Assembly: GCA_013001295.1 (NCBI GenBank)
Contig: JABDMW010000040.1
Coordinates: 124,001 to 188,000 of the forward strand
Direction: 5' to 3'
Source: Hyphomonadaceae bacterium
GTDB lineage: Bacteria; Pseudomonadota; Alphaproteobacteria; Caulobacterales; Maricaulaceae
Length of the DNA: 64,000 nt
The position numbers were made by a program, and so were the translations under genes. Of the stretch, positions 38,570 to 53,112 are shown piece after piece. The number at the start of each line of letters is the position of its first letter. The stretch's first letter is position 1. Under the pieces are notes generated by a model that searched no databases, was not told where the DNA came from, and saw only the letters and a program-made list of their open reading frames with translations.

Positions 38570-38637
38570 CCTCTCCTAAGGGAGAGGACTGCGTGCAAGA
38601 TCGATTCTTAATCGAGATTGCACTGCAGGGTGAGGGG
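38570..38637 (+). repeat. Dispersed palindromic repeat, copy R1a
   Basis: The copy begins with the palindrome CCTCTCCTAAGGGAGAGG (38570-38587) and ends with GGGTGAGGGG (38628-38637). The middle, ATCGATTCTTAATCGAGAT flanked by TGCA words, is itself partly palindromic. Related copies lie at 38682, 42568, 43812 and 44221. Confidence 0.85.
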
Positions 38638-38681
38638 AAATGATGGCGCGATTTTCGAGTTTATCGGATGTGGTAAGTTGA

Positions 38682-38731
38682 CCCCTCACCCGCAGTGAGC
38701 TTCGCTCACGCGACCTCTCCCCAAGGAGAGG
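38682..38731 (-). repeat. Dispersed palindromic repeat, copy R1b (inverted)
   Basis: CCCCTCACCC (38682-38691) is followed by a GTGAGC/GCTCAC hairpin and CCTCTCCCCAAGGAGAGG (38714-38731). It is the reverse orientation of R1a, 44 bases away, so the two face each other through their GTGAGGGG ends with no gene between. Confidence 0.85.
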
Positions 38732-42567: not shown

Positions 42568-42609
42568 CCCCTCACCCTCGCTTCGCTCGACCTCTCCCCA
42601 AAGGAGAGG
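42568..42609 (-). repeat. Dispersed palindromic repeat, copy R2
   Basis: CCCCTCACCC (42568-42577), a short CGCTTCGCTCG middle and CCTCTCCCCAAAGGAGAGG (42591-42609). It has the same orientation as R1b and R4 and stands alone, between gatC and the hydrolase gene. Confidence 0.82.
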
Positions 42610-42692: not shown

Positions 42693-43787
42693 ATGGTCTA
42701 TCAACTGCTTTTCCCCCTCGCCGTGCCGGTCGCTGCTGTGGCCGCGATCACGAAATTTCACCTCAAAGGGCCGAGCCTGAAGAAATACGACAAGCCTGTG
42801 GATCTGCATTTCAATTCTGATCCAAATTCCAAAGGCGTCAAAGACGTCAGCGACTATCTGATCGAGAAATTCATCAAACCCGCCCAAGGGGATGGCGGCG
42901 CAGTCGAGAAACTGAGCGCCAAGCGAGAACGCTTCGAGCAAGGCGGTTTAACCCGCAAATTTCCGTCTAAATTCACGCGGTTTACCATTAAAGACATGGG
43001 TGTGCCGGATTTGACAGGTGAATGGACCGAGGCCAAAGGTGCCGATCCAAATAAGCGGATCCTATATTTGCACGGTGGTGCCTACACGGTCGGCAGCGCC
43101 ATATCCCACCGCGCCATCACCAGCCAACTCTCTGAGCGCACCGGCTGTGTGGTCTGCGCTATCGACTACCGCCTGATGCCGGAAAACTCCCGCTCGGCAC
43201 CCATGGAAGATGCTCGGGCGGCCTACCGCTGGGTCTTGGAAAACGGCCCTAAAGGCCCGGCGCCAATTGAGAAATTTGCCATTTCCGGCGACAGTGCCGG
43301 CGGCAATCTTACCCTAACCACCATCAATTGGGCGCGTGACGCCGGCATGCGGCAAGCCGATGCCATCGCCGTTCTGTCGCCCGCGACGGATGCCACGGTT
43401 TCATCGCCCAGTATAAAAGGCAATTTTGCCACTGACTTGATGCTGCAGCCCTTGGTGGGACCTCTATTGAAACTACCGACCTGGGTGTTGTTGTGGGGAT
43501 CATGGCGACAAACCGGCTTCCGCCCGTCCGACCCCAAGGTTTCCCCTATTTATGATCATCTTCGGGACTTGCCGCCCATATTGGTGCAAGCTTCCGAGAC
43601 CGAAATGCTGCGCGATGACGCGGTGCGCTATGTGGCCAAGGCCAAGGCAGCCGGCACCGATGCGCGTCTGCAACTGTGGAACCACATGCCGCACGTGTTC
43701 CAGATCTTTGATGAAATGTTGCCGGAAGCCGGCGATGCCCTGCAAGAAATCGCCAATTTCTTCGCGGAGTTTGGGGTGAAGAAGTAA
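42693..43787 (+). CDS. Alpha/beta hydrolase, HSL-like esterase with N-terminal anchor
   Basis: The protein has 364 residues. A hydrophobic N-terminus (LLFPLAVPVAAVAAI) suggests membrane attachment. LYLHGGAYTVGS begins the oxyanion site at His127 and ISGDSAGGNLTL places the nucleophile Ser at 201. ASETEMLRDDAVRY holds the Asp and HMPHVFQIF the His. It is an HSL-family esterase like the gene at 1382 but with about 60 extra N-terminal residues. AAAGGA precedes the ATG. The substrate is unknown; a lipid ester is plausible from the anchor. Confidence 0.85.
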   Translation: MVYQLLFPLAVPVAAVAAITKFHLKGPSLKKYDKPVDLHFNSDPNSKGVKDVSDYLIEKFIKPAQGDGGAVEKLSAKRERFEQGGLTRKFPSKFTRFTIKDMGVPDLTGEWTEAKGADPNKRILYLHGGAYTVGSAISHRAITSQLSERTGCVVCAIDYRLMPENSRSAPMEDARAAYRWVLENGPKGPAPIEKFAISGDSAGGNLTLTTINWARDAGMRQADAIAVLSPATDATVSSPSIKGNFATDLMLQPLVGPLLKLPTWVLLWGSWRQTGFRPSDPKVSPIYDHLRDLPPILVQASETEMLRDDAVRYVAKAKAAGTDARLQLWNHMPHVFQIFDEMLPEAGDALQEIANFFAEFGVKK

Positions 43788-43811
43788 AATTTTTAGAAAA
43801 CCTATAGACTA

Positions 43812-43873
43812 CCTCTCCCTTGGGAGAGGTCGCGTGACCTCGGACATATTCCGGGGGAACTGCGGGTGAGGGG
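43812..43873 (+). repeat. Dispersed palindromic repeat, copy R3
   Basis: CCTCTCCCTTGGGAGAGG (43812-43829) leads through a 34-base middle to GGGTGAGGGG (43864-43873). It has the same orientation as R1a. Its inner end lies 3 bases from the end of the DUF559 pseudogene. Confidence 0.85.
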
Positions 43874-43876
43874 AAT

Positions 43877-44218
43877 TTATGTGACCCCGATTAGCCGTTC
43901 AATATCAGCGAATACTCCGTCGATATTTTCGGATATCTCATTATTTCAGTAACGAAGCACCCTATATCCTTGATCCTCAAGGAATGCAGATCACCTAGCA
44001 TCATATTCGCGTGCATCATCTGTTGCATGTTGATCACCATAAAGCTCGACAATCAGCATTTCTGTTTCGCAAAAAAAATCGACAATAAATCGACCGATTG
44101 GAACCTGTCTCTTGAATTTTAAATTATAAAATTGGCGGTTTCTAGCTTCATTCCAAAAACAAGTTTCAGCGTTGGTTTGATCTCGACGGAGTTTTCTGGC
44201 GAGTTCAATGCTATTCAT
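43877..44218 (-). pseudogene. DUF559 (Vsr-like) endonuclease with two in-frame TGA codons
   Basis: From ATG 44218 the frame encodes NSIELARKLRRDQTNAETCFWNEARNR and a PD-(D/E)xK-like core (GRFIVDFFCETEMLIVELYGDQH), typical of DUF559. It then meets TGA at 43993-43991. Reading on in the same frame restores the family tail (SAFLEDQGYRVLRY-stop-NNEISENIDGVFADIERL), broken by a second TGA at 43948-43946 where family members have Trp. The frame ends at 43877, 114 codons in all. No frameshift is needed. CGA-to-TGA and TGG-to-TGA changes explain both stops. It is bracketed by inverted repeats R3 and R4. Confidence 0.85.
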
Positions 44219-44220
44219 AT

Positions 44221-44248
44221 CCCCTCACCCTCTCCCCAAGGAGAGGGG
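44221..44248 (-). repeat. Dispersed palindromic repeat, copy R4 (short)
   Basis: CCCCTCACC runs directly into CTCTCCCCAAGGAGAGGGG, without the middle part of other copies. It begins 2 bases upstream of the pseudogene start codon and is inverted relative to R3. Confidence 0.82.
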
Positions 44249-44254
44249 ATAATA

Positions 44255-45808
44255 TTAAAACCCGCCGCCGGTTTTGAAACCACCTCGGCGGGAGCCGCCG
44301 CCGCGCGATCTGGGTATGCGCACACGCGGTGCGCGTCGTGTCGGGGCTGATCTGCGGGATCGGCGAGATGAGCCACCGCCGCCGCGTCCCCACCCACCAA
44401 ATGGATCAGAACCTCCCCCGAATATACCGCCGGAATTCCGACCGGAACCACCGCCAAATATACCGCCGGAAGAGCGCGGCAAGCGCATGGCCTCACCCCA
44501 GTCTATGCCGCCAAAATCACCGTCTGAGCGGCGATGAACGGTGCGTTGTGCCCGCTCAATCTGGCGCCAGACATCATTGCCGGAAATCAGCCCGCTTATC
44601 ATTTGCCCCAATAGGGCCGCGATCAGATTGGACGTAAATGTCGAGGACGGTGCATCATAGCGCCGGCTTTTGAATTTGCGTCGGATTTGCTCCATTTCAG
44701 CTAGTGATCGTTGATATTTTTCAATCAGTACGCGGGAATCCTGTTGATCTTCTTCAAGCTCGCGGGCTTCACGTGAAAGTTCGATCAAATCACCAATGGC
44801 CCGGTCATCATCGCGGCTAATTGTCTGGGAGGCGAGTCGGCGTAAGGACGGCAGCTCCTGACGTTCCAATGTGTTGACCAAAAGCGCGATGGCTTCCCGG
44901 TACGGGGCACTGTCCCCGGCGCCCACTTGAGCTTGCTCGGTCCTGATGGCTTGATGTTCCGACTCGGCCTGTTCCAGTTTTTCATCAATGCCGTCGAGCT
45001 TGGCCTGGGCTTTCAAAGAGGCTGTCTTTTTGGCTGTGACACCGGCTTTCACCAAGGCCTTCTCTTCCGCCTCCTTCAATGTGATCCGCGCCTGTTCTTC
45101 CTTCTCTTCCAGATCCTCGACATGGCGTGCCAAACGCACCGGAATATCAGTCAGGCGTTTATAATTAAGCGCGGCGTCGCGGTATTTCCCGCGCCGGGCA
45201 ATCCATCCGTCCAGCATTTTTGTCAGGAACCAGCCTTTGGCTTCCCGTGTCCCAAATTTGCGTTTTTGCAAGTATTGGAAATACGGATCATTGCGATAGG
45301 CCGCTCCTTTTTCTTCCACATCTTCTTCGGCCAATGCCTGCTTGGCGTCGGCGCGTTCCGTCGTCGCTTCCGCGGTTTCCACGGCCGTCAACAAGGCGAT
45401 ATAGTCCGGATCCGCCACCAGTTTTTTCTGAGTCGCCTCAGCGGCTTTGTCATAGGCATCAACCGCCTTTTCCACCACGCTTTCCTGGGCGCGGCGCTCG
45501 GCTTCCAGCTTGGCGATTTTAGCCAGGCTGGCATCGGCTTTTTTGGCCAGGCGCGCTTCTTCCTTTTCATGGGCGTTCATGAGTTTGGCCGCTTGCCGGT
45601 CCACATAGCCAAGGTCGCCCCCTTCACCTTGATCGAGGAGTTCAAGACGGAGTTTGGCAATTTCACCGTAGGATGCCGCTTGTTTGCGGCTGACATCGGC
45701 AAGCGCCGCGGAGGCACGTTTGGGCAATTCAGATGCTTTGGCCAGTTGCGTGCGGGCCTTGGCGATCGCCTTGTCAATTTCGTGCAGTGTTTTACGTCCG
45801 CTCGCCAT
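44255..45808 (-). CDS. Coiled-coil protein with Gly/Arg/Ser-rich tail, third gene of an unknown operon
   Basis: ATG 45808 overlaps the upstream stop as TAATG and has GGAG upstream, giving 517 residues. Long heptad-rich helices occupy about residues 1-330 (runs of Ala/Lys/Glu). About residues 395-420 contain a short hydrophobic segment (SNLIAALLGQMISGLISG). The last 70 residues are an RGG-like tail (GGGSGRNSGGIFGGGSDPFGG...). No catalytic motif is visible. The tail could contact nucleic acid, polyanions or cell wall. It acts with the two preceding genes by operon logic only. Confidence 0.75.
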   Translation of the reverse strand: MASGRKTLHEIDKAIAKARTQLAKASELPKRASAALADVSRKQAASYGEIAKLRLELLDQGEGGDLGYVDRQAAKLMNAHEKEEARLAKKADASLAKIAKLEAERRAQESVVEKAVDAYDKAAEATQKKLVADPDYIALLTAVETAEATTERADAKQALAEEDVEEKGAAYRNDPYFQYLQKRKFGTREAKGWFLTKMLDGWIARRGKYRDAALNYKRLTDIPVRLARHVEDLEEKEEQARITLKEAEEKALVKAGVTAKKTASLKAQAKLDGIDEKLEQAESEHQAIRTEQAQVGAGDSAPYREAIALLVNTLERQELPSLRRLASQTISRDDDRAIGDLIELSREARELEEDQQDSRVLIEKYQRSLAEMEQIRRKFKSRRYDAPSSTFTSNLIAALLGQMISGLISGNDVWRQIERAQRTVHRRSDGDFGGIDWGEAMRLPRSSGGIFGGGSGRNSGGIFGGGSDPFGGWGRGGGGSSRRSRRSAPTRRAPRVRIPRSRGGGSRRGGFKTGGGF

Positions 45809-46737
45809 TACCACTCCAGGATGAGACCACCGGAGGTCTCGATATTGTATTCAGGGTTCAAAAAGCCACGCTTTTTTGCGCCGATCACCGCATTTTGGAT
45901 GATCTGGTCGTCCTTTTTGTCGGCAGCGACGCGGTTAAATACAGATTCGGGCACGCGTACCCCCCAGATCGTGGTGCGTTTTGCGGTTTGATCTTCTTCG
46001 CTGGTGATATTGACCGTCACGGGCTTGCCGCTGGCATCGAGCCCTTCGACGATCAGATAATAGTTTTTGATATCGGTGTTGTCTTCGCTGTACCGCCAGG
46101 CACCGCTCAACTCGTCCGGGCGCGAGACTATTCGCAAGGTATAGGCTTGATTGAGGTCCATGTTCAGCGTCGTTAGCGCTCGTTCAATGCGCTTGGCTTC
46201 ATCCACCTTCCCGGACTTGGCAGCTGCTAATCCGTCATTATAAAGCGCGTTGACGCGCTCCTGAATTTCAGCTGTTTTGGCAATGGAAATCGCGTCGTCG
46301 CGGGCGGTTTCTAACGAGCGCGGGATTTCGATTTTAAGCTGACGCTCCAATCGGTTAGCAGCTGCGTTTTTCGGGGCTTCAAACGCCGCATAATTGACGC
46401 CCCACGCCATGCCCAAAATACCAAAGAGTAAAATCAGCGGCTTGCCCCATTTGCCGCGATTGATGTAGGCCTTGGCGAAAAAACTGTCCTTCTGCGGTAC
46501 ATAGGCGAAACGGTGATCATCAAGGGCCTGCACCCCTTCGCGCAATATGGAGTCGGGCACTTCGATGCCCTGGGCTTTGTAGATTTCGCGCAAGCGTTCA
46601 ATCAGTTGTTGCTCACGATCCTCAACCGACAAGTCCCGCGCAAGCAGTTTGGTTTCGTGGCGGAGGGTATCCACCACGTCCATGGCCAGCATAACGTCGT
46701 CGAGTTTATGCGGTTCCTGTTTTTGCGCGTCCGCCAA
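45808..46737 (-). CDS. Single-pass membrane protein (DUF6384-like), second gene of an unknown operon
   Basis: This 309-residue protein probably starts at TTG 46737, 10 bases after the upstream stop; there is no ATG before residue 16. The N-terminus LDDVMLAMDVVDTLRHE resembles what I recall as DUF6384. Residues about 99-117 form one membrane helix (PLILLFGILGMAWGVNYAA). A helical stretch follows and then a beta-rich C-terminal domain (YYLIVEGLDASGKPVTVNI; TIWGVRVPESVF) facing the opposite side. It overlaps the next gene by TAATG. The function is unknown. Confidence 0.75.
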   Translation of the reverse strand: MADAQKQEPHKLDDVMLAMDVVDTLRHETKLLARDLSVEDREQQLIERLREIYKAQGIEVPDSILREGVQALDDHRFAYVPQKDSFFAKAYINRGKWGKPLILLFGILGMAWGVNYAAFEAPKNAAANRLERQLKIEIPRSLETARDDAISIAKTAEIQERVNALYNDGLAAAKSGKVDEAKRIERALTTLNMDLNQAYTLRIVSRPDELSGAWRYSEDNTDIKNYYLIVEGLDASGKPVTVNITSEEDQTAKRTTIWGVRVPESVFNRVAADKKDDQIIQNAVIGAKKRGFLNPEYNIETSGGLILEW

Positions 46738-51030: not shown

Positions 51031-53112
51031 GTGTTTCATCGTCGTCATTTTTTAAAATCATCCATTGGTGCAGGCGCCCTCGTCGGTCTTGCCAGCAATT
51101 TGCCTGCCTGGGCCATGCCCAGCCATCGGGGCAATATGGGTATTCCATCGCTGCACGGAACCAAATTCGATTTGAATATCGACCGCTTTCCCGTGTCCGT
51201 AAACGGGCGTACAGGAAACGCGATAGGCGTCAATGGCACGATGCCGGCCCCACTTATCAGGTTCCAGGAAGGCGACGATATCGAGATCAATGTCACCAAC
51301 AATTTGAAGGTGGATACATCGATTCACTGGCATGGATTATTGGTCCCTTTTTACATGGATGGCGTGCCGGGGGTCAGTTTCCCAGGGATACCGTCTGGAG
51401 AAACATTTCAATATAAATTTTCAGTGCCGCAGAATGGCACCTATTGGTATCACTCCCATTCGGGTCTGCAGGAACAAGCGGGGCATTACGGCCCCCTTAT
51501 CATCGACCCCAAAGGCACCGACCCCGTTAAATATGACCGTGAATATGTCATGGTTATTTCTGACTGGAGTTTTTTGGACCCCAATCACATATTCGCCAAG
51601 CTCAAAAAGATGGGCGAATCCTTTAACTACGCTCAGCTTACCTTTGCGGAAAAGCGACGCAAAAAATTGCATCCGATGTGGGATCAAATGCGTATGTCGC
51701 CGCGCGATATCGCCGATGTCACCGGCGCCACCTATACCTATCTGATCAATGGTCACGGCACCGAGGATAATTGGAACGCGATTTTCGTTCCAGGAGAACG
51801 CGTTCGGCTGCGCATCGTCAATGCATCTGCGATGAGTATCTTCAATATCCGCATACCCGGCCTGCCCATGACAATCGTTCAGTCTGACGGGCTGAATGTT
51901 CAGCCTCTCGAAATAGATGAGTTCCAAATGGGAGTCGCCGAAACCTACGACGTGATCGTCGAACCCAACGACAATCGCGCCTATGCTTTTGTCGCTGAGT
52001 CCATCGACCGTTCCGGCCAGGTCGTTGCTACATTGGCCCCCACCAAAGACGCTCGCGCCACCGCGCCGGCGCTGCGCGAAGTCCCGACACTAAAAATGAT
52101 CGATATGGGTATGTCCGAGCACGACATGGGACATGAAATGGAAGGCGGGCACGGCATGTCTTCTCCAACACACACAATGCCCGATGGCACAGTGATGAGC
52201 GGTGCAAGTCACGACGGTCATGACATGAGCAGTGATAAAATGTCAGGACCAACACACACAATGCCCGATGGCACAGTGATGAGCGGTGCAAGCCACGCCG
52301 GTCATGACATGAACATGATGGATCATAGCCAGCATGACATGTCGCCAAAACCCGAACCCGCGAGCATGGATCATTCCATGCACGATATGTCAGATGCAGA
52401 TGCGCCGATGGTCGAACGTGGACCAGGTGTCGCAAACATCGCTATGAACCCGGTCAGCAGATTGCACGAACCGGGCATCGGGCTCGAGAACGTGCCCCAC
52501 CGCACTTTGAATTATGCCGATCTCAGGAGCCTGGAGCCTAATCCCGATACGCGTGCGCCCGAGCGGGAAATTGAGCTGCATTTGACCAGCAATATGGAAC
52601 GCTATATGTGGTCCTTTAACGGCGTGAAATTTAATCATGTCAAAGAATCGATCAAACTTTACGAAGGCGAACGGATTCGCTTCGTCCTGATCAATGACAC
52701 GATGATGCCACACCCTATTCACTTACACGGCATGTTTTTTGATCTGGTCAATGGCGGCGGCACTCACAAGCCGCGCAAACATACCGTCATTGTTAAACCC
52801 GGTGAAAAACTGGCCTATGACGTGACCGCCGATGCGGTCGGTGACTGGGCGTTCCACTGTCACCTGCTTTATCATATGCATGCCGGTATGATGCAGGTCG
52901 TCTCCGTGATGCCGTCAAGTGAAATAAAGCCATCGCATATGGATCATCAACAGATGGATCATAGCGAAATGGGGCACGGGTCGATGAAACATGACCAAAT
53001 GGATCACGGCAAGATGGATCATGAAATGCCCCTGGAACAGAAGCCAAAACCGGATCACTCCAATATGGATCACTCCAATATGGACCATTCAAAAATGGGA
53101 CATGGGGGTTAG
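51031..53112 (+). CDS. copA: Copper resistance multicopper oxidase CopA
   Basis: The protein has 693 residues from GTG 51031 with AGGAG upstream. A Tat signal (RRHFLKS) directs folded export. Copper ligands appear as IHWHG and WYHSHSG in domain 1 and HPIHLHG plus WAFHCHLLYHMHAGM at the C-terminus, so the type 1 and trinuclear sites look complete. Residues about 360-457 hold a Met/His-rich insert with two 28-residue near-identical repeats, and residues 636-693 form a second MDH/MGH-rich tail. It oxidises Cu(I) and stores copper in the periplasm. copB follows after 2 bases. Confidence 0.94.
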   Translation: MFHRRHFLKSSIGAGALVGLASNLPAWAMPSHRGNMGIPSLHGTKFDLNIDRFPVSVNGRTGNAIGVNGTMPAPLIRFQEGDDIEINVTNNLKVDTSIHWHGLLVPFYMDGVPGVSFPGIPSGETFQYKFSVPQNGTYWYHSHSGLQEQAGHYGPLIIDPKGTDPVKYDREYVMVISDWSFLDPNHIFAKLKKMGESFNYAQLTFAEKRRKKLHPMWDQMRMSPRDIADVTGATYTYLINGHGTEDNWNAIFVPGERVRLRIVNASAMSIFNIRIPGLPMTIVQSDGLNVQPLEIDEFQMGVAETYDVIVEPNDNRAYAFVAESIDRSGQVVATLAPTKDARATAPALREVPTLKMIDMGMSEHDMGHEMEGGHGMSSPTHTMPDGTVMSGASHDGHDMSSDKMSGPTHTMPDGTVMSGASHAGHDMNMMDHSQHDMSPKPEPASMDHSMHDMSDADAPMVERGPGVANIAMNPVSRLHEPGIGLENVPHRTLNYADLRSLEPNPDTRAPEREIELHLTSNMERYMWSFNGVKFNHVKESIKLYEGERIRFVLINDTMMPHPIHLHGMFFDLVNGGGTHKPRKHTVIVKPGEKLAYDVTADAVGDWAFHCHLLYHMHAGMMQVVSVMPSSEIKPSHMDHQQMDHSEMGHGSMKHDQMDHGKMDHEMPLEQKPKPDHSNMDHSNMDHSKMGHGG
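52165..52314 (+). repeat. 84-bp-period tandem repeat inside copA
   Basis: Two copies begin at 52165 and 52249. The first 44 bases of each are identical, and the rest differ at a few positions. They encode the repeated PTHTMPDGTVMSGASH block. The DNA-level identity indicates a recent duplication of a metal-binding module. Confidence 0.85.

Follow-up and report, generated by a model that had tools for sequence, protein, structure and literature searches.

Dispersed palindromic repeats with cognate enzymes include the REP and REPIN repeats, which occur with the RAYT tyrosine transposases; RAYTs have been proposed to move REPs (PMC3116915, PMC3686654). Another repeat, BoxC/PIT/TM_ECO, is an intrastrand-triplex motif with 3610 copies in 262 proteobacterial genomes (PMC4666352). 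These repeats have been associated with genomic instability, and two types of inverted pair are described; no link with mobile elements was reported (PMC4666352). No cognate gene is named in the text of that paper, in which 'nuclease' and 'duf' each occur 0 times. BoxC was noticed in E. coli in the 1990s.

DUF559 is a common protein family, carried in Pfam as 'of unknown function'. The profile of its E. coli member YcjD detects Vsr at 1e-5 (PMC1189080), and a Caulobacter DUF559 protein has been treated as a Vsr-like mismatch-repair nuclease that may cause breaks (PMC12907096). A search of open-licence papers in PMC found no paper tying DUF559/YcjD to the repeats described below; most subscription papers and preprints lay outside its scope.

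The window analysed here is a stretch of 64,000 nucleotides from a Hyphomonadaceae bacterium (GCA_013001295.1, contig JABDMW010000040.1, positions 124,001 to 188,000). It contains a DUF559 (PF04480) endonuclease pseudogene on the minus strand (43877..44218), lying between two inverted half-elements of one repeat, R3 and R4, both recognised from the sequence and by a pattern scan. R3 (43811..43873, plus strand) consists of a palindrome (43812-43829), a variable hairpin and a head, GTGAGGGG, at 43866-43873 toward the gene; its DNA fold has a z of -3.06. R4 (44221..44248, minus strand) has its head, read as CCCCTCAC, at 44221-44228 and its palindrome at 44229-44246, and its DNA fold alone is not clearly above shuffles (z -1.86). 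The DUF559 frame runs from an ATG at 44216-44218 to a TAA at 43877-43879, leaving 3 nt between it and R3 (43874-43876) and 2 nt between it and R4 (44219-44220), and both GTGAGGGG heads point inward at the pseudogene. The left neighbour is an alpha/beta hydrolase gene (42693..43787, plus strand), and the right neighbour encodes a 519-aa protein with no Pfam match at E<=1 (44255..45814, minus strand).

The first 75 codons of the frame match PF04480 with 81 bits (E 6.7e-23; Pfam gathering cut-off 20.6). Over the whole stretch the match rises to 120 bits and spans two in-frame TGA codons (43991-43993 and 43946-43948). A tyrosine stands in place of the invariant D of E-x-D-G, a position at which 25 of 25 aligned relatives have D. 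With Y for D and two stops, neither the full set of catalytic-type residues nor the open frame has been retained; the copy is broken and its bracketing by R3 and R4 is exact. It is the sole PF04480 match of its genome, although the same genome search returned no match in the E. coli control genome despite the 167 bits of K-12 YcjD, a discrepancy which is unexplained.

Two further occurrences of the repeat lie at lower coordinates in the window. One is a gene-less inverted pair (38570..38731), with palindromes outside, GTGAGGGG heads inward and about 45 nt between the heads, the left half of which folds with a z of -8.10; the other, recognised by eye, is a lone half-element (42568..42609, minus strand) made up of a CCCCTCAC head, a hairpin and a palindrome. 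At <=3 mismatches the window holds four palindromes, compared with a shuffle mean of 0.21, and four were reached in 0 of 100 shuffles. The whole genome (3.49 Mb) has 16 palindrome places, compared with none for a reversed-pattern control, and 14 of the 16 copies do not adjoin a DUF559 gene. Inverted pairs are frequent among the loci examined, either with heads inward about 45 nt apart (L003, L008, L014, L016) or with heads outward (L006, L012, L013). Comparison shows the half-elements—a GTGAGGGG-type head and a palindrome, often with a second hairpin—to occur in inverted pairs, many of them gene-less and dispersed. The pseudogene thus occupies the place taken by a short spacer in the gene-less pairs. 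Elsewhere in the window, two 76-nt direct repeats, 91% alike and with starts 84 nt apart, were seen at 52156-52315.

The chance that any of about 3300 genes would be bracketed within 5 nt on both sides was crudely estimated at 2e-6. This estimate presumes independent placement and uses rounded inputs, and the true chance is greater because these repeats come in pairs; a survey of other genomes is the better test. The original prediction, made from sequence alone, had placed R3 3 bases from the last codon and R4 2 bases from the start codon, in opposite orientation with their ends inward, and this held exactly. Its statement that the copy had been inactivated also held.

DUF559 is present in 88 of 137 genomes of the window's family. 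The sample from this family comprised 83 hits, taken by descending score from at least some 150: 40 of the top 42 (without G128 and G068) and 43 of the next 46 (without G102, G132 and G133). Around the first 40, the density of first-type palindromes, the type of the window, is 5.97 per kb up to 150 nt from the gene and falls to 0.007-0.045 per kb at distances over 600 nt; 31 of the 40 have one within 250 nt, and 23 have them on both sides. At some of the nine loci without a first-type palindrome other inverted palindromes, of CTCCCC/TTCCCC types, were spotted by eye, and these types were then tested on the 43 new hits. A flank test with a single palindrome type was judged inadequate, as it missed DUF559 genes bearing other palindromes. 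Around the 43 further genes, the first type occurs at 1.55 per kb within 150 nt against 0.02-0.05 beyond 300 nt, and the second type at 3.88 against 0.02-0.09. The pattern used for these hits also admitted an unrelated ATCCTGACG palindrome, and the counts are unchanged without it. Taking all 83 genes and both types together, 71 have a palindrome within 300 nt, compared with 29 of the 640 ORFs that served as controls at these loci; for palindromes on both sides within 300 nt the counts are 44 of 83 and 1 of 640. At many loci the distance from gene to palindrome is no more than 150 nt.

A second, named set was drawn from 540 confirmed relatives that the family-protein alignment gave in one-per-species genomes; the best 80 were taken, mainly from Alpha-, Beta- and Gammaproteobacteria plus a few others, with many metagenome bins. 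A palindrome was found within 300 nt at 66 of these loci (42 of 527 control ORFs), and palindromes on both sides at 42 (3 of 527). The window's own family contributes eight of the 80, seven of them with a DUF559 stretch identical to that of a family-set member, so the two sets are not fully independent; without the eight, the counts are 59 and 37 of 72. Among seven loci labelled Planctomycetota, Spirochaetota, Marinimicrobia, Acidobacteria or Deltaproteobacteria, five have a palindrome within 300 nt and two have them on both sides. Sampling is thin both for the lower-scoring DUF559 hits and for phyla other than Proteobacteria. None of the four palindrome types was found within 300 nt of 12 of the 83 family genes and 14 of the 80 named genes. 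Relative to other intergenic DNA, palindromes are in 15-fold excess near DUF559 in the family (3.52 against 0.235 per kb) and in 8-fold excess in the named set (3.27 against 0.387 per kb).

The association was also examined without any pattern, by scoring the best inverted repeat between the two flanks of a gene, with a threshold of >=16 and with loci dropped where the contig ended within 100 nt. The threshold was reached at 28 of 39 family DUF559 genes and 2 of 473 controls (one locus dropped), and at 55 of 78 named DUF559 genes and 9 of 538 controls (two dropped). Without the family members, 50 of 70 named loci reached it, as did 22 of the 43 lower-scoring family hits. Of six loci from a plasmid collection, three passed (Azospirillum 25.5, S. 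meliloti 104, Deinococcus 48.5) and three fell below (E. coli 9.5, Synechocystis 12.5, Sinorhizobium K101 9.0). The strongest inverted flanks among the 78 scored loci, with a score of 125, belong to a DUF559 gene of Legionella anisa (L204).

The head nearest to the gene faces it on 68 of 81 sides in the family and on 49 of 58 sides in the named set. Of the loci with a head on each side, 28 of 34 and 11 of 18, respectively, have both heads pointing inward. Comparison with other genes thus shows that DUF559 sits between repeats far more often than they do, with the nearest heads mostly facing the gene. Repeat numbers are also related to the presence of the gene: family genomes with DUF559 have a median of 4 first-type palindromes (n=88), and those without it a median of 1 (n=49; Mann-Whitney p 1.4e-5). 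The relationship is not strict, as nine of the 49 genomes without DUF559 have at least 4 palindromes, one of them (G063) having 26, and 17 of the 88 with DUF559 have no first-type palindrome.

The lineage of a DUF559 protein and the type of its repeat vary together, and more so than host genus alone would explain. In 2793 between-genus pairs of DUF559 loci, the Spearman correlation between protein similarity and flank-repeat similarity is 0.335, a value reached in 0 of 500 within-genus protein shuffles (mean 0.045, sd 0.025). The same is seen for pairs of DUF559 genes within one genome, in which a flank repeat (score >=20) is common to both members in 0 of 18 pairs at a protein similarity below 0.45, in 8 of 17 at 0.45-0.6 and in 12 of 12 at >=0.6. 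Some of these same-genome pairs are recent duplicates, and the test controls for genus and not for finer phylogeny.

The repeats beside DUF559 in other genomes include exact copies of the BoxC/PIT triplex motif, an addition to the original prediction. With the published pattern, CCCTCNCCCN3-6GGGNGAGGGN3GGGNGAGGG, 37 exact copies were found within 300 nt of DUF559 at 21 of the 80 named loci, equivalent to 0.79 per kb against 0.009-0.014 per kb beyond, or an enrichment of about 65-fold. A reversed-stem motif was rejected as a control: the element is nearly its own mirror, and this motif too becomes more frequent beside DUF559, with 12 exact copies within 300 nt compared with 37 true ones. Distance was therefore used as the control. 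R3 and R4 are variants of the BoxC motif with a different second loop. Exact copies are rare in the window's family, where a hairpin often replaces the 3-nt loop; the motif is found exactly at 2 of the 83 family loci and with <=3 mismatches at 12. The relation of these family repeats to BoxC is inferred from their common architecture, and whether they form a triplex is not known.

In E. coli K-12, ycjD (b1289) is a DUF559 gene (PF04480, 167 bits), and an exact BoxC copy lies between fabI and ycjD. The gene was found in 3365 of 5426 E. coli genomes. Two strains without it have efflux-pump genes at that place, beside fabI (L295 and L296, against L294), and eefRABCD and ycjD have been described as alternative occupants of one site (PMC12817139). 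BoxC-type places were counted in 60 E. coli records spread over a ranking of 5393. The 37 with ycjD have 11-25 (median 18, with the ycjD site counted as one), and the 23 without it have 1-17 (median 10), some of them 10-17. Phylogroup is a confounder of this contrast, which rests on few independent events.

One family genome, G064, carries two copies of a 669-nt module–DUF559–module unit, 99% identical, in opposite orientation and 151 kb apart. Homology between the copies stops at the outer CCCCTCA/TGAGGGG heads. The 669-nt unit holds DUF559, and the two other ORFs of >=110 aa that overlap the unit are without a Pfam match at E<=0.1. A composite transposon or IS would be expected to have a transposase gene and a target-site duplication; neither was found, the former by Pfam at this threshold and the latter by eye. 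The first site was compared in 8 of the 18 other genomes of that genus. In G078 and G063 a single gene-less module occupies this position, but in reverse orientation; G062 has a module too, none is present in G066 or G077, and synteny is broken in G079, G069 and G065. Comparison of the second site is less clean because about 650 nt to the right of the unit, including a 218-aa ORF, are also absent from relatives. The outer neighbours are the same in G065, where they enclose a gene-less element, and in G069, where they enclose a DUF559 gene in reverse orientation, flanked on the left by a module and on the right by one which by eye resembles that of G065.

Sites without any module were also found. 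Of 11 other genomes checked at the window's hydrolase locus, one (G115) retains the convergent neighbour pair. Its homologue of the right neighbour (65% over 501 aa) adjoins the hydrolase, and the approximately 60 nt between the two genes contain neither repeat nor DUF559, and thus represent an empty site. In Sinorhizobium C101, the two genes on either side of a module–DUF559–module unit have homologues in Shinella that abut. Inspection by eye of the G064, G069 and Sinorhizobium sites revealed no target-site duplication; an apparent CCGGG(A/C)TTT duplication in G069 was discounted, as it resembles a linker that accompanies other copies in that genus. Few clean insertion polymorphisms were found between about 200 kb of G064 and 200 kb of G063, where one array is longer in G064 and one G063 element corresponds to a G064 site that differs in sequence. 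All of these comparisons are of differences between species, and gain and loss have not been polarised with a tree.

Several other elements were observed in passing. In S. meliloti Ak57, the right-hand repeat module of a DUF559 unit contains ISRm16 (L129:6571-7734); the modules of S. meliloti may be RIME elements. A dispersed repeat of about 150 nt with more than 100 partial matches in genomes of one genus lies at L056:8908-9060, and at about L093 2270-2360 another palindromic repeat (CGTCATCCTGACGAAAGTCAGGACCC...) stands where relatives have the DUF559 repeat.

The structure of an intact DUF559 relative, from G131, was modelled with a mean pLDDT of 91. In a Foldseek search the model matched NGO0050, a protein of the same family, followed by the catalytic domain of the homing endonuclease I-Bth0305I (3r3p; prob 1.00) and, more weakly, PvuRts1I and Vsr. 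A profile search returned NGO0050 (3e-40), I-Bth0305I (E 2.9e-4) and PvuRts1I (0.015). The nearest solved structure outside the family is thus a homing endonuclease, and for this reason a homing-like route is possible beside a RAYT-like one. Y1-domain transposases, which share the domain of RAYTs, are present in 25 of the 137 family genomes; palindromes were found within 300 nt of none of the 30 Y1-domain loci, about eight of which are strong Y1 matches and some of which lie at contig ends. On this count a RAYT was ranked low as the mover of these repeats.

Taken together, the unit is likely to be a REP/REPIN-like mobile repeat system in which DUF559, a PD-(D/E)XK nuclease of the Vsr/homing-endonuclease type, is the cognate enzyme; cleavage and movement are inferred. 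The nuclease would recognise its cognate head and hairpin, perhaps in single-stranded hairpin or triplex form while the DNA is being replicated, and would cut at the head. The cut may release modules or copy them into new intergenic places; alternatively, it may open an existing module, into which repair would copy the gene-bearing unit. Mobilisation of modules and homing into modules each fit parts of the site data. As the gene in the window is dead, its lineage should no longer spread its approximately 16 dispersed copies by itself. Against this reading, neither biochemistry nor genetics has shown the protein to cut or move the repeat. The pattern resembles that on which the proposal of REP movement by RAYTs was based, and by that logic, which is one of analogy, DUF559 would be the cognate enzyme. 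The original prediction had suggested such a role, that DUF559 may mobilise the repeat as RAYTs do REPs. The association supports it, while the activity remains an inference. The test set for it, enrichment of the repeat near DUF559 in other genomes, was strongly positive in the 83 family hits and in the 72 named loci outside the family, so that the refuting outcome of no enrichment did not occur. Empty sites, which it had proposed looking for in relatives, do exist, as do gene-less ones.

The most serious rival, which remains possible, is a homing variant in which a selfish endonuclease gene cuts existing modules and is copied in by repair, while the repeats disperse by other means. It is favoured by I-Bth0305I being the nearest solved structure outside the family, by the gene-less modules at the same places as the G064 units (in G078, G063 and G062 at the first site, and in G065 at the second) and by G069, where a module and the gene adjoin a module that by eye resembles that of G065. 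However, the G064 modules at the first site are oriented opposite to the solo modules of G078 and G063, the G115 and Shinella sites are empty and without a module, and the higher repeat numbers in genomes with the gene are not predicted by homing alone. A passenger model, in which a RAYT, replication slippage or an IS moves the repeats and DUF559 merely sits in repeat clusters, can draw on the abundance of repeats in some genomes without a DUF559 match, such as the 26 in G063. We consider it unlikely, given that none of the 30 Y1-domain loci has palindromes within 300 nt, that the repeats near DUF559 are 8-15-fold above other intergenic DNA and that protein and repeat lineages co-vary, within genomes too.

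Nor does a purely house-keeping nuclease appear probable. In this model DUF559 would process hairpin or triplex obstacles, or mismatches, at these repeats and so protect the host that carries them without spreading them, as would suit its Vsr-like fold, the reading of the Caulobacter protein as a repair enzyme (PMC12907096) and the link of TM repeats to instability (PMC4666352). However, bracketing by its own repeats, two copies of a whole unit and the orientation of the heads are all unpredicted by it. Least plausible of all is a regulatory role, with the palindromes acting as terminators or operators of the DUF559 gene. Their position within 150 nt of the gene at many loci would be consistent with this, but 14 of the 16 copies in the window's genome are away from DUF559, and the modules are paired with a preferred head orientation and also occur as direct repeats around the gene.

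A bolder reading is that DUF559/YcjD represents a bacteria-wide class of mobile repeat systems independent of RAYTs, in which a compact PD-(D/E)XK nuclease would recognise hairpin or triplex repeats of the BoxC/PIT, CTTCTCC and CTCCCC/TTCCCC types and drive their spread. We incline towards this joint claim by a narrow margin, and it is inferred. If true, it would explain the origin of BoxC-type repeats and the instability linked to them. DUF559 is suggested as the hitherto missing enzyme behind the genomic spread of these repeats; linking BoxC and DUF559 gives both a testable function, and the question of what moves BoxC becomes a one-gene question in E. coli K-12. The linkage further suggests a second origin of the REP/RAYT life-style, from a nuclease unrelated to RAYTs.

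Among the known systems, the Vsr/YcjD-like PD-(D/E)XK nucleases include YcjD, itself a DUF559 protein, but no repeat association appears in the passages of PMC1189080 consulted. The homing endonuclease I-Bth0305I (3r3p; EDxHD; PMC3943268) resembles DUF559 in fold and by profile match. It differs in that most DUF559 proteins here have a length of 110-160 aa, with no long DNA-binding tail; they are flanked by repeats, and none was seen in an intron. The BoxC/PIT/TM_ECO motif is matched exactly within 300 nt of DUF559 at 21 of 80 named loci and beside K-12 ycjD, whereas most copies in the window's family carry a hairpin instead of the 3-nt loop. REP/RAYT is a further parallel. Both systems have short palindromes with a conserved head, inverted doublets, cognate inverted copies flanking the gene, one to few genes per genome, a repeat type that tracks the enzyme lineage, pseudogenised copies and a repeat abundance tied to the presence of the gene. 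They differ in that a whole DUF559 unit is found in two near-identical copies in one genome, and in that the DUF559 enzyme belongs to the PD-(D/E)XK nucleases and not to the HUH/Y1 transposases, and the heads of its repeats are GTGAGGGG/GATGAGGGG-like, not GT(A/G)G (head definition in PMC3686654). As both enzyme and head differ, the DUF559-repeat system is not a RAYT system.
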